A DNA stretch of 59,887 nucleotides, taken from contig CADBOF010000012.1 of NCBI GenBank assembly GCA_902796345.1, positions 1-59,887 on the forward strand, in the 5' to 3' direction. Source of the stretch: an uncultured Pseudomonadota bacterium. Lineage in GTDB: Bacteria; Pseudomonadota; Alphaproteobacteria; RUG11792. Shown here piece by piece: positions 21,238 through 35,255 of this stretch. Position numbers and translations under genes: made by a program. Each line of letters opens with the position of its first letter. The first letter of the stretch is position 1. Under the pieces are notes generated by a model. The model was not told the origin of the DNA and did no database searches. It saw only the letters and a program-made list of their open reading frames with translations.

Positions 21238-22944
21238 ATGAGAATTGTTTTTCGCACATTTGTTGCGATATCAATTGCAACTGTATTTATTCAAACATCA
21301 GTATTCGCCTTGATTTCAGACGACAAAGTGGAAGAAAGCTCTAAAAGGCTGGTAGAGATAATAGAGAAAGGATGTAAAGATCGAAATATTTTAGGTTGCG
21401 TTGTTGCAATAGTTCGTCACAATAAAATTGTATTGCTTAAACCGTTCGGTTACACAACAATCGATAAAACTGTTCCTATAACTGTAGATACAGTATTTCC
21501 TATATCATCAGTTTCAAAAAATATTACGGCTTTTCTTATTGGAGCTCTTGTTGATGATGGAGTAATTAAATTGGATGACAAAATTCGCAAATATGACAAA
21601 ACGTTTTTCATACATAGCGAAGAATTTTCAAAAAATCTTGAAATAAAAGACTTGATATGTCACGGAAGTGGATTCCCTAATTTTGCCGCGGACAGCCTTT
21701 GGAGTTGCGGATATTCGAAAAAACAGATAGTGGAAGCCTTTAAATACATAAAACAAATGCCTGGTGCTTTTAGAAGATACTACGCGTATCAAAATGTTTT
21801 CTTTGGGCTTGTTGGAGATGTTCTTGAAAAAGCAACTGGAGAAAAATACGAAGATTTGGTAAAAAAGTATTTATTTTCAAAAATGGACATCAAAAGCGCA
21901 TCAGCAATTCGTTTACGTTATGAAACATCGCGATGGGAACACATGAAGTACATGATGTCACGATTTAGTTATGATGTTAGTCGTCATGGTTTTTTTGCGA
22001 CAATCGGAACTTTTATAAGAGAAATATTTACATTCAAACCAATTAAGTCCGTTTCAAATTATTCTTACCTCAATGACGGATTGGTCGAAGTTCCAGATAT
22101 TGGTTTTTTTCAAATATACCCTGCTACTTCCGGTATTGCAATTTCTGGCAATGAGTTTGCTAAATGGTTGCAAATGATTTTATCAAAAGGTCAGTATAAT
22201 GGGAAAACAATAGTAAAACCTGATACTTTTCAAAAAATTGTTTCGCCAGTAGTGGATATGAAAAATACTAAACCAACAGACGAAACTTTTCCAATTGAAA
22301 GGTTTCCGCGAGAAAGCTTACATTACGGATTAGGTACATTTATTGCAAAATATGCTGACAACGGGAAAAACGCTAGAAATATTATCTTTCACATGGGGGG
22401 AGTGCGAGGTGCAAGCGCATTTTTCGTTATATGCCCTGAGGAAGATATAGGTATTGGGGTCATAAATAATGTAGGCGGAACAACAAATACACTCTTTGCT
22501 GAATACATGTGTAATAATTTCTTGGATTTGTGTTTTGACTTCTCTAAGAAAGATTGGGTATTAGCAGAGGCTAATCGCTTGCGACGAGTAAGTAAGTATA
22601 AATTCATAAATTTGGAAATGTGTTCTGAAAACCCAACACCATCAGCATCGCTTGACAGATATGAAGGAGTTTTTACAAGCGATATTTACGGAGATGTAAA
22701 GTTTTATAAAGAAAATGGGCGCCTAATTATGGATACTGGAATTAAGAAAACTGAGTTAACGCACGTTAATAAGGACATATTTTCATTTCCTATGCGTGCA
22801 ATACGATTGTGTTGGTATGATGCAAATGAATATGTTTCATTTGAGAAGGATGAAAAATCAAATTTTTGTTCGTGTAGAATTACTTGTTTCAAAGAAGGTG
22901 ACACAATATTTAAAAGGAAGGAGAAAATGAAAAATGCAAAATAA
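21238..22944 (+). CDS. beta-lactamase-fold serine hydrolase (AmpC/EstB/PBP-like)
   Basis: A 568-residue exported serine hydrolase of the class C beta-lactamase-like family. The signal peptide covers about 1-24. The catalytic SxxK is Ser91-Val-Ser-Lys94; YxN appears as Tyr-Gln-Asn in YAYQNVFFGL (about residue 185), and the third motif is HMGG near residue 387 in place of KTG. A C-terminal domain of about 120 residues resembles the lipocalin-like tail of such proteins. Family members include peptidases, esterases and penicillin-binding proteins; real beta-lactamase activity is not implied. Its last 11 bases overlap the chpT-like gene. Confidence 0.85.
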   Translation: MRIVFRTFVAISIATVFIQTSVFALISDDKVEESSKRLVEIIEKGCKDRNILGCVVAIVRHNKIVLLKPFGYTTIDKTVPITVDTVFPISSVSKNITAFLIGALVDDGVIKLDDKIRKYDKTFFIHSEEFSKNLEIKDLICHGSGFPNFAADSLWSCGYSKKQIVEAFKYIKQMPGAFRRYYAYQNVFFGLVGDVLEKATGEKYEDLVKKYLFSKMDIKSASAIRLRYETSRWEHMKYMMSRFSYDVSRHGFFATIGTFIREIFTFKPIKSVSNYSYLNDGLVEVPDIGFFQIYPATSGIAISGNEFAKWLQMILSKGQYNGKTIVKPDTFQKIVSPVVDMKNTKPTDETFPIERFPRESLHYGLGTFIAKYADNGKNARNIIFHMGGVRGASAFFVICPEEDIGIGVINNVGGTTNTLFAEYMCNNFLDLCFDFSKKDWVLAEANRLRRVSKYKFINLEMCSENPTPSASLDRYEGVFTSDIYGDVKFYKENGRLIMDTGIKKTELTHVNKDIFSFPMRAIRLCWYDANEYVSFEKDEKSNFCSCRITCFKEGDTIFKRKEKMKNAK

Positions 22945-23557
22945 TGCTGATGGGTTGCTGGTCGCTAGAATTTGTCACGATTTGAAGAACTGTTTATCTG
23001 TTATTGCTTTTTTTAAAGAAGATTTAATGGAAAACTCTGTTGATTTAAAAAACGGACTTGAAGAATTTATTAAAAGCGTAGACAATTTAAGTTTGCGACT
23101 TAGTTTTTTTCAAAATTTAGCAGTTGATGGAGCGCATATAGGTAATTTGTACGAAATGCTACAGCAAATGTGTGCCGGGCACGGTATAAATTTAGCATTT
23201 GACATTAACTCAGTTGATTTGGAACAAGACAGTATAGTTCAAAATGTTATTTGTGGTATTTTATACCTTATAATTGTTGATCTATTGAGAAACAAAAGTC
23301 CACACGAAATAATTACAGTGACAGACAAACAATTGGAAAATATAGTAATAACAATATCTAACATGTCGACCGAAGCGTTACCACGTGAAGTTTGGGACAT
23401 TACCGAAATAGAAGAAGTACAGGCAACTATTGTAAATGCTTTAGCTTTATATGTGAAAAAAATTATGAAACGTCACGGATATGTCACTAACATTTTTGAC
23501 GAACAAGATACTACAGGCGCTTCGAATGTTAAAATAATAATAAAGAAATTGTTTTAA
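22934..23557 (+). CDS. chpT: ChpT-like histidine phosphotransferase
   Basis: ChpT passes phosphate from the kinase CckA to CtrA and CpdR in the alphaproteobacterial cell-cycle relay. The phosphorylatable histidine is in RICHDLKNCLSVI near residue 15, matching the family's (L)CHDL motif in the first helix of the dimerisation bundle. The rest (about 90-207) resembles a degenerate histidine-kinase ATPase domain, as expected for ChpT. 207 residues is normal. The start at 22934 has GGAAGGAG upstream and overlaps the hydrolase gene by 11 bases. CckA and CtrA are not in the window. Confidence 0.78.
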   Translation: MQNNADGLLVARICHDLKNCLSVIAFFKEDLMENSVDLKNGLEEFIKSVDNLSLRLSFFQNLAVDGAHIGNLYEMLQQMCAGHGINLAFDINSVDLEQDSIVQNVICGILYLIIVDLLRNKSPHEIITVTDKQLENIVITISNMSTEALPREVWDITEIEEVQATIVNALALYVKKIMKRHGYVTNIFDEQDTTGASNVKIIIKKLF

Positions 23558-23998: not shown

Positions 23999-24056
23999 AA
24001 TTGATTTCAGTACTCGCAAGAATACTTACGCATTAGAATGTTTGTTATTGGTTACA

Positions 24057-24848
24057 ATGAATTTTAAACAAAAACTTTTAATAAAAATAAAATTAAAACG
24101 TTATAGGTTTTACGTCTTATCTATTATTTGTGGCTCATTAGTTGCAATATTAGATATAACCAACAACAATTTTATGCCTGGATACAAAAAATGTGTAAAA
24201 AAGATTACTCTGCCAGTTAAAAAGTCAATGAATGAACTAGTGGGAAGTATCCGAGTAATTTTTAATACATGTAACGTAAACAACATACAACTATTATTAG
24301 AAAATAAAAACCTGAAAGCTCGAATCTTAGAGCTCGAAAACAAAAATAAAGAACTAATTAAACAATGTAAATACGAAAGGTTATCAAAGCGAATGACATT
24401 TCAAGTATTAGGATTTGAACAAAATATATTCAAATCTTCTTTACTTACAGAAGCAACAGACGAACTCAAGCCTGGATATGTTGCGACAACAATTGATGGA
24501 TTGGTTGGATTAGTAACCGACGTATCAAGTGGTATCGCTCAGATATTAACAATTACCGATAGGCGTTTTTCGGTTCCTGTAAAAACAAAATCTAATGTGC
24601 ATATTATTATGACTGGAAATGACTGTAATATGTTGACTGCGTCAGTAATACAACAAAGTAACAGATTTACAGCAAATATTAAAATTGGAGATGTTTTATA
24701 TACATCTGGCGAAGGAGGAATTTTCCCTTGTGGAATTCCAATTGCAAAAGTTACTAAAAATCGTCCTATAATTGTTGCACAGCCTATTGTTAATATAGAC
24801 CGTTTAGAATTTGTAAAAATTATGAAACCAACATTATCTATTGGATAG
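24057..24848 (+). CDS. mreC: rod shape-determining protein MreC
   Basis: MreC links cytoplasmic MreB to the periplasmic wall-elongation machinery. The 263 residues show a short basic cytoplasmic N-terminus, one membrane helix (about 15-36), a coiled coil (about 75-105, LLLENKNLKARILELENKN) and the double beta-barrel domain with DGLVGLVTDVSSG and LTITDRRFSVPV. The ATG at 24057 is preferred over a TTG at 24042. mreB, usually directly upstream, is replaced here by the Fis-like gene, and mreD does not follow. Confidence 0.88.
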   Translation: MNFKQKLLIKIKLKRYRFYVLSIICGSLVAILDITNNNFMPGYKKCVKKITLPVKKSMNELVGSIRVIFNTCNVNNIQLLLENKNLKARILELENKNKELIKQCKYERLSKRMTFQVLGFEQNIFKSSLLTEATDELKPGYVATTIDGLVGLVTDVSSGIAQILTITDRRFSVPVKTKSNVHIIMTGNDCNMLTASVIQQSNRFTANIKIGDVLYTSGEGGIFPCGIPIAKVTKNRPIIVAQPIVNIDRLEFVKIMKPTLSIG

Positions 24849-24875
24849 TTGTTTTTTTTATGAATTTGATATAAT
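24849..24875 (+). promoter_or_regulatory. candidate promoter of the frame-split gene
   Basis: A perfect TATAAT at 24870-24875 with TTGTTT at 24849-24854, 15 bases apart, directly after the mreC stop. The spacer is shorter than the optimal 17. The start would be near 24882, thirty bases before the ATG at 24912. Confidence 0.45.
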
Positions 24876-25008
24876 GCCACGTAGGTTATCAAAACTTACT
24901 ACCTGACACTTATGATAATTGCTATGACACTCTTGCTTGGAGTAATAGGCGCTGTTGTCGTAACATCTAGCAACGATACAAGTTCATTCTCTCCCCTACC
25001 ATACAACT

Positions 25009-25230
25009 TTGAACACAGTCACAAGCATTACTACTCCTCTAGAACCAGCAGGATCTAAAGGAAAGACACTTGAACCTTCTGTTATTTTGAAGAACAAAAT
25101 TGAAGAAGACAAAAAAGCTGACACGAAACTAACAGTTACTTCTAAAACTGGAACAGGAGTTTCAATTCAACCACCACCTCCTCCGCCTCAGGTCGTGTCG
25201 CCAGATGTAAAAAACATTGGCTATTGTTAA
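25009..25230 (+). CDS. fragment 2 of the frame-split gene (Pro-rich segment)
   Basis: 73 codons with a TTG at the left edge and no ribosome-binding site; the frame is open from 24964. It contains a Lys/Thr-rich region and a run of six prolines before the stop at 25228. Best read as an internal piece of the split gene, not an independent gene. Confidence 0.35.
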   Translation: MNTVTSITTPLEPAGSKGKTLEPSVILKNKIEEDKKADTKLTVTSKTGTGVSIQPPPPPPQVVSPDVKNIGYC

Positions 25231-25436
25231 TAGGAAAACACAAAACATCTAAATCAGGTTCTTTTTTAGAAGGTGAGCCTGCATTCAAGTCTTTACAAGA
25301 AGAGCTTATGTACAAGAAGAATAATTTAAAAAAAATGTCAACCGTTGGAACAGATGACAATAAAGAAGTTGATAAGGCAAAAACATCAGAGTTAGGAATC
25401 AATATAAAGGATTTACTTAATGCTAAAAAATGTTAA
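25224..25436 (+). CDS. fragment 3 of the frame-split gene
   Basis: 70 codons, Lys/Glu-rich and helical, ending INIKDLLNAKKC, where the A6 run at 25425 interrupts it. The TTG start overlaps the previous stop and has no supporting signal. Confidence 0.35.
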   Translation: MLIGKHKTSKSGSFLEGEPAFKSLQEELMYKKNNLKKMSTVGTDDNKEVDKAKTSELGINIKDLLNAKKC

Positions 25437-25686
25437 AGAAATTAAAAACGTTGACCAAAAAATTAAATATAAAAACGACACAGGACAAATAATTGATATT
25501 GACGAAAATAATGTCAATACGATATATGAGGATATTGTCCTTGAAATTCAAAAATTAGAAAAGAATGCGGATCCAAATAACGCAGGAAGACTAAAATATT
25601 TGAAGACAATCGAAGGTTATATAGAGAAAGATTATAAAGGAAAGTTACCTAACAAAATTTTTATAAAATCTAAACTGAAAAAATAG
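25420..25686 (+). CDS. fragment 4 of the frame-split gene, first repeat module
   Basis: 88 codons with an ATG at 25420 inside the previous frame. It carries IDIDENN, then YEDIVLEIQKLEKN, KYLKTIEGYIEKDY and PNKIF. The same order of elements recurs in the next fragment, which shows an internal duplication. It could be translated alone, but there is no good ribosome-binding site. Confidence 0.42.
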   Translation: MLKNVKEIKNVDQKIKYKNDTGQIIDIDENNVNTIYEDIVLEIQKLEKNADPNNAGRLKYLKTIEGYIEKDYKGKLPNKIFIKSKLKK

Positions 25687-25688
25687 AT

Positions 25689-26021
25689 TTGGTCAAATGT
25701 ATAAACAACAATAAAGCTAAAGGGAACTCTAAAAAAGATAATAAAAATAACCCATTTCTTAATTTGTTAAAAAAACAAAAAGCAATAAACTCAAAAACTA
25801 ACTATGTTGGAGTTGATGACAAAAAAATCAATATTGACGAAAATAATTGTAAAAATTTCTATGATCAATTTAAAAAGAAAATTGCAGAACTAGGAAACAA
25901 AAACAATAGGACGCAAGAAGAAGCGAAACTACTTAAAAAACTTGCCACTCAAGTAATGTGGTTAGAAAAAGATTTTCCAGAATTAAAGAAAAACATTTTC
26001 GAAGTGAAAAAGATTTTATGA
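25689..26021 (+). CDS. fragment 5 of the frame-split gene, second repeat module
   Basis: 110 codons from a TTG three bases after the previous stop. INIDENN, YDQFKKKIAELGNKN, LLKKLATQVMWLEKDFPE and KKNIF align with the module in fragment 4. It ends 71 bases before the end of convergent rsmD. Confidence 0.42.
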   Translation: MVKCINNNKAKGNSKKDNKNNPFLNLLKKQKAINSKTNYVGVDDKKINIDENNCKNFYDQFKKKIAELGNKNNRTQEEAKLLKKLATQVMWLEKDFPELKKNIFEVKKIL

Positions 26022-26092: not shown

Positions 26093-26659
26093 TTAATTGT
26101 TTATAAAAAAGAAAACTTTTTTATCACCTGAGGGTGATAGTGTGTAATTTGGTTTCAGATCATTTAAAAGTGCGTTACTGTCAGTTTCAGCCAAGATAAT
26201 TAAATTTTTTTCTTTAAACATTTCTGTCATTTTGATAATTTGATTTTTTAAAACATCGGTTTTTTGGTATGGCGGGTCTAGTATTACTAAAACATTTCGA
26301 TCAAACTTAGAATATAATTTGTTAATCCTATACTTAGTAACATCAGCTCTTAATATTAAACATTTATTCTTTAAACAAAGGTTTACAACATTTTGTTGGA
26401 CTATATTATAAGCAAAATGGTTTTGTTCAAAAAAAACAGCAAACGGAGAACCCAAAGATAAAGCTTCTATACCAAGAGCTCCAGAACCAGCAAATGCATC
26501 AATTACAGCCCATTGCGAAAAATCCATATTAAAACGATGTATTAAACAATTAAACATTGCTTCTTTCACGGCGTCAGAGGTTGGTCGCGTCGTAGAAATA
26601 TTTGGCAATTCTATTACTCTGTGTTTTAGGTTTCCGAATATGACGCGTCCTTTATGCAT
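26093..26659 (-). CDS. rsmD: 16S rRNA (guanine-966-N2)-methyltransferase RsmD
   Basis: RsmD methylates G966 of 16S rRNA using S-adenosylmethionine. The SAM site is DAFAGSGALGIEAL (about residues 50-63) and the catalytic motif is LDPPYQ near residue 128; RPTSDAVKEAMFNCL near residue 25 is also typical. I start at the ATG at 26659 (188 residues), where the family begins (HKGRVIFGNLKHR); the frame is open to 26710. The start overlaps the der stop by eight bases, so it is co-transcribed with der, bamB and the YfgM-like gene. Confidence 0.92.
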   Translation of the reverse strand: MHKGRVIFGNLKHRVIELPNISTTRPTSDAVKEAMFNCLIHRFNMDFSQWAVIDAFAGSGALGIEALSLGSPFAVFFEQNHFAYNIVQQNVVNLCLKNKCLILRADVTKYRINKLYSKFDRNVLVILDPPYQKTDVLKNQIIKMTEMFKEKNLIILAETDSNALLNDLKPNYTLSPSGDKKVFFFINN

Positions 26660-28025
26660 GCTTCTTTTTGGAGTTTTGTGATTTAAAAACAAATCGTACA
26701 ACAATATCATTCAAATTAAAATGTTGTTTAAAGTGATTTTGAATAAAACGTTCTTTGTCGTCTCTCATTTCTTGTAATCTTGAAACAAAAATTAAAAACG
26801 TAGGCGGTGTCTCTCCTATCTGAGTTACATATTTCAACTTAAATTTCATTGATGCACTTTTCATGACATCTGTATCATTTATAATTTGTAACCACCTATT
26901 AAGCTTTGATGTGTTTATTTTAATTCTGTGACGTTCATATGTTTTGACGACCAAATCAATAAGTTTATTTAAATTATCTTTATTCACAGCTGATATAAAA
27001 ATAAACGGAACATCCTTATGTTGAGCCAAACTATGCTGGATATTATATACAAGGTCTTTTGGTTTTGAATTCTTTTTAAATTTAGTCTTGTCGTACTTGT
27101 TAAATGCAAGTATCAATGCTCGTCCATCATTTAAAACGTTTGATGCTAAAGTTAGATCTTGTTTTTCTAACACTCCATGTTCAACAGTTGTAGCATCTAT
27201 AAGCAACACAACAACATCAGCATGCCGATAAGAACGCAATGTACTTGTGACAGAGATCTTTTCTAACTTATCAGTTATTTTTGCTTTACGTCGTACTCCT
27301 GGCGTGTCTATCAATTTTAAGTTTGTACCATTATAGGTAAAGTCAAACGCAGAACTTTCGCGAGTTAACCCAGGAAAATCTGCAACAAGCTGTTTGTCTG
27401 TTCCTAACAATGCGTTTGTTAGAGTGGATTTACCAACATTGGGGCGACCTATAAAAGCTAATTTTATAAAATTCTTTTGACGCATTTCTTCAGTTGAAAT
27501 CAATTGTTCAGGAATATGTTTGTACACACAATCTAGCAACTCGTTAATGCCAATGTCATGTTCTGCTGATATCGCTATAGTATTTTTAAAACCAAGAGTC
27601 ACAGCATCAACATAAGCTTGTTCCTTAACTGTGCCTTCTGTTTTATTTACAGCCATTATTATATTTTTTCCTGATTTTCTTAAAATATCTGCTGTTTTAA
27701 AATCATTTGTGCTTAAACCAGCAATACCATCTGTGACAAATATAATTAAATCAGAATTTTCTATAACGGTCTTGATTTTTTCATTAATGGCGTTCATTAA
27801 TTCCGGCTTGTTATCACATTCGGCATAATCAAACATTCCCGGAGAATCGGTAAGCGTCACTATCTTATCAAATATGGTTATCGTTTTTTCTTTGGCATCT
27901 CTTGTGACTCCCTGGCGATTGTATGTAAGAGCATTTTTTGCACGCACAATTCTGTTGAACAATGTAGATTTGCCTACATTTGTTCTTCCCATCAAAGCTA
28001 TTTTAAAAAAACTATCCGATTGCAT
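26652..28025 (-). CDS. der: ribosome-assembly GTPase Der (EngA)
   Basis: Der has two tandem GTPase domains and a KH-like C-terminus and matures the 50S subunit. P-loops GRTNVGKST (near residue 14) and GRPNVGKST (near 200), DSPG and DTPG switches, and NKTE and NKYD base-recognition motifs are all present. The C-terminal KH-like part includes TPPTFLIFVSR. I start at the ATG at 28025, twelve bases after AAGGAG; an ATG four codons earlier touches that site and is unlikely. 457 residues is normal. The start overlaps the bamB end by 14 bases. Confidence 0.95.
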   Translation of the reverse strand: MQSDSFFKIALMGRTNVGKSTLFNRIVRAKNALTYNRQGVTRDAKEKTITIFDKIVTLTDSPGMFDYAECDNKPELMNAINEKIKTVIENSDLIIFVTDGIAGLSTNDFKTADILRKSGKNIIMAVNKTEGTVKEQAYVDAVTLGFKNTIAISAEHDIGINELLDCVYKHIPEQLISTEEMRQKNFIKLAFIGRPNVGKSTLTNALLGTDKQLVADFPGLTRESSAFDFTYNGTNLKLIDTPGVRRKAKITDKLEKISVTSTLRSYRHADVVVLLIDATTVEHGVLEKQDLTLASNVLNDGRALILAFNKYDKTKFKKNSKPKDLVYNIQHSLAQHKDVPFIFISAVNKDNLNKLIDLVVKTYERHRIKINTSKLNRWLQIINDTDVMKSASMKFKLKYVTQIGETPPTFLIFVSRLQEMRDDKERFIQNHFKQHFNLNDIVVRFVFKSQNSKKKHA

Positions 28026-30046: not shown

Positions 30047-30344
30047 ACTTTTAACGTTTTAATTTTTCACACGTATAGAATACACCAACATTTCTAACAC
30101 ACAGAAAAATACCGTGTGGTAATTATGAAACATTCAATTACATGTACAAAAAATATCTTTATTGTTTTGAATGTCTGGTGCTACTTTGATTTAACAAAGT
30201 ATTAATATTTAAAATATTTTGTCGATATAACGAACAAAACGTTTAACACAAAATTTACTTTTGTATTAATCGCTTTTATTTGTTAAACATCGTGTAGGGT
30301 AAATTCTGTCTTGCGGAATTTAATAAATATTTAACGGAATTCAA

Positions 30345-33300
30345 ATGAAAAACCGATTAATTTTGTTTAGTAGCGTTATGTACAGCGCGCTGTTATCAAC
30401 GATTGATACATCAAGTGCTATGAGAACGATAATAAATAACGCCAATCTTATAATTAAAACTGAACGCGATGAGACAATTATAAACAACAGACATTGTAAA
30501 ATAACGACAGGAAAAATTAATGCATCCATTACCAACAAAAATGCGGAAGCTATTTTAGAAATATTGGGAGAAAACGCACATGCAGAAATAATTAACAATG
30601 AGTCAGGAACTGTTGAACAAAGCACAGGAACTGTAAATGAAGTAACAAATAATGACATCTATAATCAAACCGGAGGTACCGTTAATCAAGTTACAAATAC
30701 AGGTGAATACAATATTAATAATACAAACATAATAGATAAAATAATAAACAATAACGATAATGCCGTCTTTAATATTAAGGGCGAAGAAACATGTATCCCT
30801 CAAATAACAAACGAAGCAGGAACAGTAAATCATATTGAAGGTGCGGTTACCAATGTTAATAACTGCGCTAAAGACGATGATCCTCAACCGGCATATAACC
30901 AAAGCGGAGGAACTATAGAGGAAATAAAAAATGATGGTGATTATATATATAAAGGAGGAGCTGTAAATAAATTTACTCAGGCAGGGAGTAAAGCTTCATT
31001 TGCTGTTGTTGATAACGCTGAATTTGAACTAAAAGGTGATAACGTTATCGCAAATGGTGCAATCGTTTTGGGAACTTCAGGGGAAGGCGCAACTAAAGGT
31101 GCACTAACTATAAATAACGGAGCCGAAAACAAAGCAAAAATAATAACTAACGCTAATTCCACTTTAACAGTAAACGAAGGTTCTGCATTAACAGCTTTGG
31201 TTGGAACAAATGTTATGACTGGCTCAACAATTGAAACATATGGGACGACACGTTTCGAAGGAATTGATAACGATACCGAAAACGTTGTTACATTAGCAGG
31301 AACTGTTGAGGTATCTGATGGTGGAACAGCTAACATTATTAGTGTCAACGAAGCTGATGGGCTTGGCGAAGACGACAAGACGCACGCGACATTAATACAA
31401 ACTGGCGGAACATCAAATATAAATGCATTTGTGACACTTGGTGAAAATACAAATGTAACTGGAGGAACTGTTAATGCCAAAGGTGATATAGAATTACACG
31501 GAAATATGACGACAGGCGACAATAACGCAACATTTAATCTTACAGGTCATGATTCAATTTTGCACATAAAAGGAGGTACAACAGAACTTAATGGTGGAAA
31601 TAACTTAGATAAAGTAAATTGGGAAGGCAATGTATTCCTTGATGGTGGAAAATTAATTCTCAAAAACATAGTTGATGATAGTGCAATAAACACAACAAAG
31701 GTAAATAAAACTGGTTATTTAACTGCACAAAGCGGTGAATTATTTATACAAGGCGATACCGTACTTTTAAATGGTGGTGACATAATACGTGACAGTGTCG
31801 ATCTAACAATTGAAGGAAACGTTGAAGTTCAAGAAAACGGAACAATGTATGTTTCTGGAGACGACGATATTAACGGCAAAATGTCAGTCAATGGCGGAAA
31901 TTTACATTTAGAAGATATTACAACGGATGAAAATAAATACGTAGAAGCAAATGCAGGAATTTTAAAAGTAAGAGAAGGCAGTACGTTAACGTTGAATAAC
32001 GATAACGATCAAATCAGTTACAATGTGGACTTAAATCTTGCTGGAAATTTAATAATCGATAATAATAACAAAACTGGAGTGACACTTAACAACATAGGAA
32101 CAGACTCTGGTGATAATTGGGATGCAAGTATTGAGCTTAAAAAAGGAATTCTAACATTAGAAAATGTATTAAAATCGACAAATAACGTTTCAAAATATAA
32201 CCAATCAGGTGGAGAATTGCGACTGTTTCAAACATCTTTAACACTCAACGCTGGAGCCAAACTAAACGGCGGAACTATCAACTTTGGGCTTACTCCTCAG
32301 GAAGATGATCCTAACGAAGGAGGTGGTGGAGGTACCATTACTTTCGATGATGGTGGCAATGGTCTCCTTCACTCATCTCCGGTGATGTTACACGCCCCCA
32401 TAAGACGAATTAAAGATATTGAAGCTAAAAAACTGAAAGCTGAAAACACCGGAATGCTAAGAGCAGATCCAAACCCTATAAGACTTCGTGCAGATCAAAA
32501 TTCAAGTGATGTGACAATAAGTAACGGTGAAGATAACAACGCAAAAGTTTTTGCTATTCCAAATAATCTTGAGTTCACAACAGAATCTACAATAAATATA
32601 TGCGGTACAAAAGCAGAAACTGGAAAACCTACAACCTTTACGTTCAATGAAGGTTCTCATATGGACGTAGGAACAATTTCTGTTGGAGATGATAATGGTA
32701 ATGGAAACATTGTTTATACTGCAGACAATGTAATTATTAACAAGGATGTAGCAATTGCAATAAAAAATAATACAGAATTTAATGTTGATGGTGCAACAAC
32801 ACGAATTACATTTAATACAGATAATCCAAAAGCACAATTTGACGGGACAATAAATCAATCAGATGGTACTGTTGCAATACTTGGCACTGGTGAAAAAAAT
32901 GGAACGTTAAAATCAACTGGAGGTGTATTAGAAATAGGTAACGGAATAACAGAAACTTCTGTAACACTTAACAACAGTGACGATAAAATATCCGGTAATT
33001 GTTATGTACAAGTTGCACCAAACACAACATTTGATTTTTCAGAAAACAAAGTTGAAACAGTGGTTGGAAACAAAGGCACAATAAACGTAACCGACGGAAA
33101 TATATCAGCTCCAATTAAAAGTGAAAGTGGTGTTGACGAATTGACTGGCACAACTAATATTTATGGAAATACAATAAATGTAGCTACAATAAGTCAAGAG
33201 ACAATAAATATTAAAGATGAGGCTCAATTTAGCACAACAGCTGATATAAAAACTAAAACATTAAATTTTGGAACAAATAGTTCTATCGATATTAAAAATT

Positions 33301-35255
33301 CAAGTATAATATCGAACACGATGACTAACGTTAACACAAATGAATACAAACTTGATAACGCAAATTTATTTTTGAAAGAGCAGTCGTCTGATATTAACGG
33401 AGAAATTATTACTTCAGGAGATAAAGTAATTTTATATATAAATGATATGAAGTTCAACGACTGCGTTAATGTAACGCCCGGATGTAACACGTATCTTGTC
33501 AGTGGGCAAATAGGAGCCGTAACAATTCCATGGGGTGCAAGGCTTACCGCAGCAAGTTCAGGAAGCGCTGCGACAAAAGATGATGTGGCAAATGCTGGTG
33601 CCGACACTAACAAATCAGGAAAACTAATCGTTGAAAAAGACGACCAAGTTGATGGAGACTTAGTACTTAATGATGCCGAAATTGAAATACAGAATAAAAC
33701 AATTGTATTTCATGAAAAACCAACACTTGAGGCTTATCTGAGTGGGCAACATAGTCCATCAGCTGAAGTGCCTGGACCATATTTCCAGAGAACAGGAAAT
33801 GGTAAATTAATTTTAAATAATTCAAATATAACAATTCCAAGCATTGATCTTTTACAAACAATGGAAAATATTGTTTTCATAGGATCGTCAAGTTTAAATG
33901 TAGGGGCTGGGACTATCAATAATTTTAAATTTACTAACACATTCAACACGTTAGATGACGAATATGGAAATTATGAAATCAAAGATAGTGCGACATTTGG
34001 CTCAGACACATCAAATAAAGTTGATTTCAATATTGATATGTATGCACGAAGCAACGAAGATAAAAAATATGATTCCTTTGGAAGCGGTACAGCAAAATTA
34101 ATTGCTGGTAATGGCACCGACGCAGTTATAAACATTTCGAACTGGACACTACACGACACAATATTCGGAAATGACGCGCCTATTGACGAACATATTTCAA
34201 TGCAGATATTTAAATTTGGAAGTATACAAGAAGGACATAAATTTACTTTTACTGCATCAGATAAAGAAGTTCTAACGCCAATTGGTTATTACAAACTTAA
34301 CTCAAAAGGAGACGGTCTGTATAGTTTTGACTTAACTCGGTATAATCCTGGCGTCTTTAGAGGGCAAATTGTAACTACAGCACAACTTCAGAACCAATTG
34401 ACCATTAATAACACGGTTTTTGACCATATTATGAGTAATGACAATAATTGCGATTGTTATCCTGAAAATAAAAACGTAACTAAAAATCGTTATGTATGGG
34501 CAAAGTTATATGGTGGGAAAGAGGAACTACATTTAAACCAAAATTTTGATGTTAATAGCAAAGCATATGGCTTAATCTTTGGTTTTGATTTCAATCCAGT
34601 TTTGAAGAATGATTTGACTCTTATTCCATCCATTTTTATGGCATACAACCATGCAAAACAAAAATATAACGATAATTATAGTTCACACCAAGAAGGAGGT
34701 CAATTCGGTTTTTCATCAATGCTATCAAGTGGACAGATGAAATTCGGAGCAATTGTATACGGAGGATATTACACGAACAAAATGGCAATGCCAGATAATA
34801 TAACCGATAAAGCAAATAATTGGTTTGGCGGAGCTTCTTTTAGAGGTGTATATGATATATGCGTTTCACAAAATGTAACTATACAACCTAACATTTCGGT
34901 CAATTGTAACAGCTTCGGAGCTACAGATTGGAAAACTGATTTTGGAAGTATGGGTATGAAACTAAATACACTTGAAGGTATAAGCATTACCCCTGGTGTA
35001 AACGTAATTCTACAAACATCGATGCTTAATTTAAGTTGCTCCGTTCAGTATGTACACGCTTTTGATAAAGGCGTAAGTGGCAAAGCTGGGAACGTTAAGT
35101 TACCAGAACTTAAATTGAAAAAGGGACATATGCAATACAGTGTAGGAATACAAGGCAATTTTTCAAAAAATTTCTCTGGCAATTTACTTGCAACAATGAA
35201 CAGTCTCGGAAAATCAGGTTTTGGCGTTCAAGCAGGAATTAGTTATAAATTTTAA
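30345..35255 (+). CDS. large autotransporter adhesin-like protein
   Basis: A type V secreted protein of 1636 residues. A signal peptide (about 1-26) precedes a long Asn/Thr/Gly-rich passenger with beta-helix repeats; two early repeats share N-Q-(T/S)-GGT and the ending (V/I)xN. At about residues 656-720 the pattern breaks into a Gly-rich and Arg/Lys-rich segment with LRAD twice, which could be a hinge or processing site. The final 250 residues (from about 1384, VWAKLYGG) form the autotransporter barrel and end in phenylalanine. BamA and TamB, both encoded here, are the expected assembly factors. It stands alone between two minus-strand units and ends at a clear terminator. Passenger function unknown; adhesion to or interaction with the host is an inference. 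Confidence 0.88.
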   Translation: MKNRLILFSSVMYSALLSTIDTSSAMRTIINNANLIIKTERDETIINNRHCKITTGKINASITNKNAEAILEILGENAHAEIINNESGTVEQSTGTVNEVTNNDIYNQTGGTVNQVTNTGEYNINNTNIIDKIINNNDNAVFNIKGEETCIPQITNEAGTVNHIEGAVTNVNNCAKDDDPQPAYNQSGGTIEEIKNDGDYIYKGGAVNKFTQAGSKASFAVVDNAEFELKGDNVIANGAIVLGTSGEGATKGALTINNGAENKAKIITNANSTLTVNEGSALTALVGTNVMTGSTIETYGTTRFEGIDNDTENVVTLAGTVEVSDGGTANIISVNEADGLGEDDKTHATLIQTGGTSNINAFVTLGENTNVTGGTVNAKGDIELHGNMTTGDNNATFNLTGHDSILHIKGGTTELNGGNNLDKVNWEGNVFLDGGKLILKNIVDDSAINTTKVNKTGYLTAQSGELFIQGDTVLLNGGDIIRDSVDLTIEGNVEVQENGTMYVSGDDDINGKMSVNGGNLHLEDITTDENKYVEANAGILKVREGSTLTLNNDNDQISYNVDLNLAGNLIIDNNNKTGVTLNNIGTDSGDNWDASIELKKGILTLENVLKSTNNVSKYNQSGGELRLFQTSLTLNAGAKLNGGTINFGLTPQEDDPNEGGGGGTITFDDGGNGLLHSSPVMLHAPIRRIKDIEAKKLKAENTGMLRADPNPIRLRADQNSSDVTISNGEDNNAKVFAIPNNLEFTTESTINICGTKAETGKPTTFTFNEGSHMDVGTISVGDDNGNGNIVYTADNVIINKDVAIAIKNNTEFNVDGATTRITFNTDNPKAQFDGTINQSDGTVAILGTGEKNGTLKSTGGVLEIGNGITETSVTLNNSDDKISGNCYVQVAPNTTFDFSENKVETVVGNKGTINVTDGNISAPIKSESGVDELTGTTNIYGNTINVATISQETINIKDEAQFSTTADIKTKTLNFGTNSSIDIKNSSIISNTMTNVNTNEYKLDNANLFLKEQSSDINGEIITSGDKVILYINDMKFNDCVNVTPGCNTYLVSGQIGAVTIPWGARLTAASSGSAATKDDVANAGADTNKSGKLIVEKDDQVDGDLVLNDAEIEIQNKTIVFHEKPTLEAYLSGQHSPSAEVPGPYFQRTGNGKLILNNSNITIPSIDLLQTMENIVFIGSSSLNVGAGTINNFKFTNTFNTLDDEYGNYEIKDSATFGSDTSNKVDFNIDMYARSNEDKKYDSFGSGTAKLIAGNGTDAVINISNWTLHDTIFGNDAPIDEHISMQIFKFGSIQEGHKFTFTASDKEVLTPIGYYKLNSKGDGLYSFDLTRYNPGVFRGQIVTTAQLQNQLTINNTVFDHIMSNDNNCDCYPENKNVTKNRYVWAKLYGGKEELHLNQNFDVNSKAYGLIFGFDFNPVLKNDLTLIPSIFMAYNHAKQKYNDNYSSHQEGGQFGFSSMLSSGQMKFGAIVYGGYYTNKMAMPDNITDKANNWFGGASFRGVYDICVSQNVTIQPNISVNCNSFGATDWKTDFGSMGMKLNTLEGISITPGVNVILQTSMLNLSCSVQYVHAFDKGVSGKAGNVKLPELKLKKGHMQYSVGIQGNFSKNFSGNLLATMNSLGKSGFGVQAGISYKF

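Follow-up and report, generated by a model that had tools for sequence, protein, structure and literature searches.

In the window, by which we mean the whole 59,887-nucleotide stretch of DNA analyzed here, the gene at 24912-26021 is probably a pseudogene of very recent origin, derived from an orphan gene that evolves fast and is confined to the genus. A related rumen bacterium retains an intact copy, so that the gene is most likely newly dying rather than rescued by slippage. The host genome is AT-rich and small (747 kb, a 43-contig draft, 97% complete). The gene is spread over five open segments (Table 1) whose starts are 0, 1, 0, 1 and 0 modulo 3, the alternation that an earlier note on this DNA had described.

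The same-genus rumen MAG RUG12940 (contig CACZTP010000005.1; hereafter G002) carries an intact 396-aa ORF at the same position between mreC and rsmD, with the same layout, in which a hydrophobic N-terminus precedes a proline-rich stretch and a Lys-rich half. A frameshift-aware alignment to this ORF spans all five segments with 152 of 346 residues identical (44%), and against the G002 protein each segment scores z 5.1-25.0 when read in its own frame and z -1.3 to 0.8, which is no match, in the other two. Since the alignment runs through the five segments, they form one gene with four frame breaks. This was the earlier note's reading, and the comparison with related genomes that it proposed finds the frame of G002 continuous at the same place. 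As is typical of a pseudogene, the frame is broken along most of the gene when set against an intact ortholog. Synteny with G002 extends over 47 kb, in which the orphan is the only broken gene.

Table 1. Positions in the window of the segments of the broken gene, the frame switches between them and the neighboring features.
Feature	Position	Strand	Description
Segment 1	24912-24986	+	Frame 0; start codon and hydrophobic N-terminus MIIAMTLLLGVIGAVVV; matches the G002 ortholog
Segment 2	25009-25230	+	Frame 1; proline-rich (PPPPPP)
Segment 3	25224-25436	+	Frame 0; A8 at 25328-25335 inside, unbroken
Segment 4	25420-25686	+	Frame 1; copy 1 of a ~60-residue repeat module
Segment 5	25689-26021	+	Frame 0; repeat copy 2 and natural C-terminus; A7 runs at 25769 and 25821 unbroken
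Switch 1	24968-25025	+	Frame 0 to 1; credible interval without an A-run of at least 6
Switch 2	25209-25227	+	Frame 1 to 0; A6 at 25209-25214 at interval edge; best score at 25221
Switch 3	25421-25433	+	Frame 0 to 1; A6 at 25425-25430 within
Switch 4	25671-25683	+	Frame 1 to 0; A6 at 25678-25683 within; frame-1 TAG stop immediately after
mreC	24042-24848		Pfam MreC; upstream neighbor of the broken gene
rsmD-like gene	26093-26710	opposite	Pfam Cons_hypoth95; downstream neighbor
TATAAT	24870-24875	+	In the 63-base gap between mreC and the broken gene
Terminator-like stem-loop	26121-26140	+	Downstream of the gene; 1 found, 0.6 expected by chance

No homolog beyond G002 was found among the 35 family genomes searched, which include the other genus-mate (G001) and 32 others, nor among phage records and viral contigs. 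In G001, mreC is followed instead by what we take, by eye, to be an smpB-like gene. Two further kinds of candidate were rejected, as the match in a genome of the same class (G036) comprises only 31 low-complexity residues and the apparent paralogs in the own genome are low-complexity DNA matches of ~40 bases. The broken gene appears to be a dispensable, fast-evolving orphan restricted to the genus. The TATAAT motif that had been assigned to it is indeed present upstream, yet it went unscored in the promoter scan because it has no -35 box match; in G002 a promoter-like site is present in the equivalent gap between mreC and the gene. Two other proteins of the window have no Pfam match: a 1642-residue ORF (30327-35252, + strand) with 64% identity to its G002 counterpart, and a 207-residue protein (22934-23557, + strand) upstream of a Fis-like gene, which is kept in all three genus members.

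The switch intervals are 1% intervals obtained from homology and codon usage combined. The earlier note had placed switches 2, 3 and 4 on runs of exactly six A. The three runs are located where it said, and those at switches 3 and 4 lie within the intervals, but in the case of switch 2 the A6 sits at the interval edge and scores 6-8 bits below the best point. The observation that a longer A-run causes no break also stands, in the form of the A8 inside segment 3. For three random intervals with the lengths of switches 2-4, the probability that all hold an A/T run of at least six is only ~0.0008, and switches 2-4 are therefore associated with A-runs. Two or three breaks are plausibly tied to such runs, which are hotspots for replication indels and for RNA polymerase alike; the association fits indel mutation as well as slippage. 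Up to three of the seven A6 runs of the broken gene are located at breaks, while its A8 and both A7 runs remain in frame. At the equivalent positions in G002, an A-run is present in continuous frame for switch 4 and absent for switches 2 and 3.

The disruption relative to G002 is gene-specific according to both a gene survey and counts of A-runs. We compared 568 kb of this genome (G000) with 712 kb of G002, and the 440 matched ORFs (144,593 codons) contain one other real frameshift, in comEC at an A8 run, and no convincing internal stop in any real gene; the stops encountered are start-proximal or lie within non-gene frames. One more hit of the survey (L106/L035) was discarded, since its ORF did not resemble a real gene, and the reverse comparison yielded two candidates in G002. 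On the coding strand of 340 intact genes, 657 A6, 261 A7 and 94 A8 runs are all unbroken, so that none of 657 A6 runs is broken there, compared with up to three of seven in the orphan. The orphan thus has an intact homolog in G002 and four breaks, and other genes are free of such breaks. Homopolymer sequencing error, which the earlier note had listed as a competing explanation, is disfavored by these counts as a genome-wide effect: a type of read that miscounts A6 would break many more genes, and therefore only a local artefact is conceivable.

Such a local artefact of sequencing, assembly or strain mixing, with the gene intact in the cells and the breaks introduced in the consensus at this place, is unlikely, though it ranks next after recent decay, which fits everything with the fewest assumptions. 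The draft state of the assembly would allow it, strains assembled together may differ in a gene that evolves fast, and four breaks combined with a full codon signal and no nonsense change have the look of an artefact. Likewise, according to Antonov et al. (PMC3711429), most singleton frameshifts validated by BLAST should be sequencing errors. Nevertheless, all other genes in the 47 kb of synteny are intact, homopolymer-error-prone reads would have broken many of the A6, A7 and A8 runs counted above, and switch 1 lies off any homopolymer of six or more. Two side observations emerged from the survey. The comEC gene (Pfam Competence; about L034:1518-3357, G000:C2) is split over two frames at the A8 run L034:2640-2647 and is whole in G002; owing to its single indel at a longer tract, it is a better candidate for slippage rescue than the orphan, or else reflects decay of natural transformation. 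Conversely, a G000 protein of ~1590 residues (L083:13063-17838) aligns with G002 in two different frames near L105:8162-8168, and L105:5847-8857 (G002:C8) is a possible broken large gene in G002.

The earlier note favored expression by poly-A slippage in an AT-rich endosymbiont. In this scenario, RNA polymerase slippage at the A6 runs would restore the frame in part of the transcripts and keep the gene alive, which on our analysis is extremely unlikely. It would suit a small, AT-rich genome, an A6 within the credible interval of three of the four switches and segments without internal stops, and it is established at long poly-A runs in aphid and ant endosymbionts, where 12-50% of transcripts are corrected (review PMC5009743). 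However, in both E. coli and Buchnera the frequency of slippage grows exponentially as tracts lengthen (PMC5574713). With E. coli RNA polymerase, frame rescue is undetectable when a run is shorter than seven T or eight A, and rescue by deletion did not occur on any A-run examined (PMC6260861). The longest homopolymers at the switches are A6, where rescue would call for about 8-9 or more A/T at every break; switch 1 has no A-run, switch 2 is only loosely tied to one, and the longer A7 and A8 runs of the same gene are unbroken. To restore the frame, a single transcript would have to undergo four corrections, some of each sign, whose yields multiply to almost nothing. Furthermore, conservation of the breaks between species under purifying selection, as expected of a rescued gene, is not seen: the frame is continuous in G002, the one other species found to carry the gene. 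The Blochmannia genes that were counted intact have a single indel in a tract (PMC3017870). As far as PMC3017870 and PMC4389277 relay them, the rescued genes of Buchnera and Blochmannia (Tamas et al., 2008; Wernegreen et al., 2010) share with the present case a small AT-rich genome and frame breaks at A-runs without nonsense changes; they differ in having a single indel at a long tract of an otherwise conserved gene, in contrast to four breaks, at A6 at most and one of them without an A-run, in an orphan absent from nearly all relatives. Insect-type endosymbiosis is itself unsupported, the same-genus genomes being rumen MAGs.

Ribosomal frameshifting, programmed or incidental, is just as improbable as slippage. 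It would read through the switches, and the A6 at switch 2 indeed forms an in-frame A_AAA_AAC heptamer in register for the required -1 direction, similar to the A_AAA_AAN heptamers of dnaX-type frameshifting. Yet such heptamers are ordinary in this genome, as the 340 intact genes hold 79 in-frame A_AAA_AAC and 502 other A_AAA_AAN (581 in total). The other three switches carry no known site, and no stimulatory RNA structure was found downstream of the three A6 sites, where folds are no stronger than those of shuffled sequences (z 0.06, 0.78 and 1.06). Unlike dnaX-type systems, the arrangement thus has a heptamer at one site only, lacks a downstream structure and is not conserved; three further switches are left unexplained, and G002 does without frameshifting altogether.

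The segments could also be translated separately into short proteins by overlapping or coupled starts, at the TTG codons that open segments 2, 3 and 5 and the ATG that opens segment 4. This is very unlikely, albeit somewhat less so than either form of recoding. Each segment does have a start codon near the preceding stop, and the repeat modules of segments 4 and 5 could fold alone. On the other hand, three of the four restarts would rely on TTG, a codon that such a base composition often yields by chance; the other segments would lose their link to the hydrophobic N-terminus, and the split is not conserved in G002. All in all, there is a slight chance that the gene still works, and hardly any that the five segments give rise to a functional exported or membrane-anchored product via low-level recoding, slippage or separate translation. 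If alive, it would have more splits than any working bacterial gene described so far, and the A-runs at its splits would be shorter. Rescue of its frames would mean that productive slippage does not, as is held, require A-runs of about eight or more; the current evidence gives no reason to believe in it.

Recent decay, which the earlier note had mentioned as a competing explanation, turns out to be the best fit, given four breaks relative to the intact G002 ORF and no internal stops. Replication slippage is common at A6 runs. We propose that small indels broke the frame four times in this lineage, two or three of them arising at A6 runs by replication slippage. With the frame broken, translation from 24912 should end after 48 codons. 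The protein would no longer be made, and constraint would have been lost in this lineage. No stop is present inside the segments, where about 55 would be expected per neutral substitution per site, which dates the breaks to within the last ~0.054 substitutions per site (95%, Poisson). The synonymous distance to G002 is above 1, near saturation. Codon log-odds are as high in the segments (0.11-0.25 nats per codon) as in intact neighbors (0.12-0.24). The pN/pS ratio with G002 is 0.53, which places the gene among the fastest of its neighbors (0.12-0.52), a value derived from two sequences only and not assignable to a branch; it indicates constraint during the greater part of the gene's past, and present-day constraint is possible. 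Two features are mildly unusual for free decay, namely the strict alternation of shift signs (chance about 1/8) and the occurrence of four indels without a nonsense change (roughly 0.15 on assumed indel:substitution ratios). Four breaks without stops are the indel pattern of an A-rich gene before nonsense changes accumulate. With recent bacterial pseudogenes (the clusters and singletons of PMC3711429) the gene shares indel-type breakage in one genome only, an intact homolog nearby and the lack of a conserved shift site. Nothing essential distinguishes it from them, its four breaks without nonsense marking an early stage. If it is decaying, an orphan gene has been caught in the first moments of its loss together with an intact sister copy, which is useful for timing gene death in small-genome gut bacteria.

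The product that the gene encoded had ~370 residues; its N-terminus was hydrophobic, one stretch was rich in proline, and the C-terminal half, rich in Lys and Asn, was built of two repeat modules. This layout makes a membrane-anchored or exported protein likely. Searches of Pfam, NCBIfam, PHROGs and PDB sequences gave nothing above curated cut-offs, only weak coiled-coil-like matches at chance level, and the predicted model of the two modules (mean pLDDT 70) had no PDB fold match at E <= 0.001. The two modules, each of ~60 residues, are mutually related (z about 6) and are predicted to consist of a strand pair with two to three helices; the first, as predicted on the G002 ortholog, is a compact strand-pair-plus-helices unit (pLDDT 76-91). 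In this genome, the DNA that codes for IDENN (ATTGACGAAAATAAT) is identical in both modules (25496-25516 and 25828-25850 of the window). The G002 modules differ at this motif, and the sharing hints at local exchange between the repeats.
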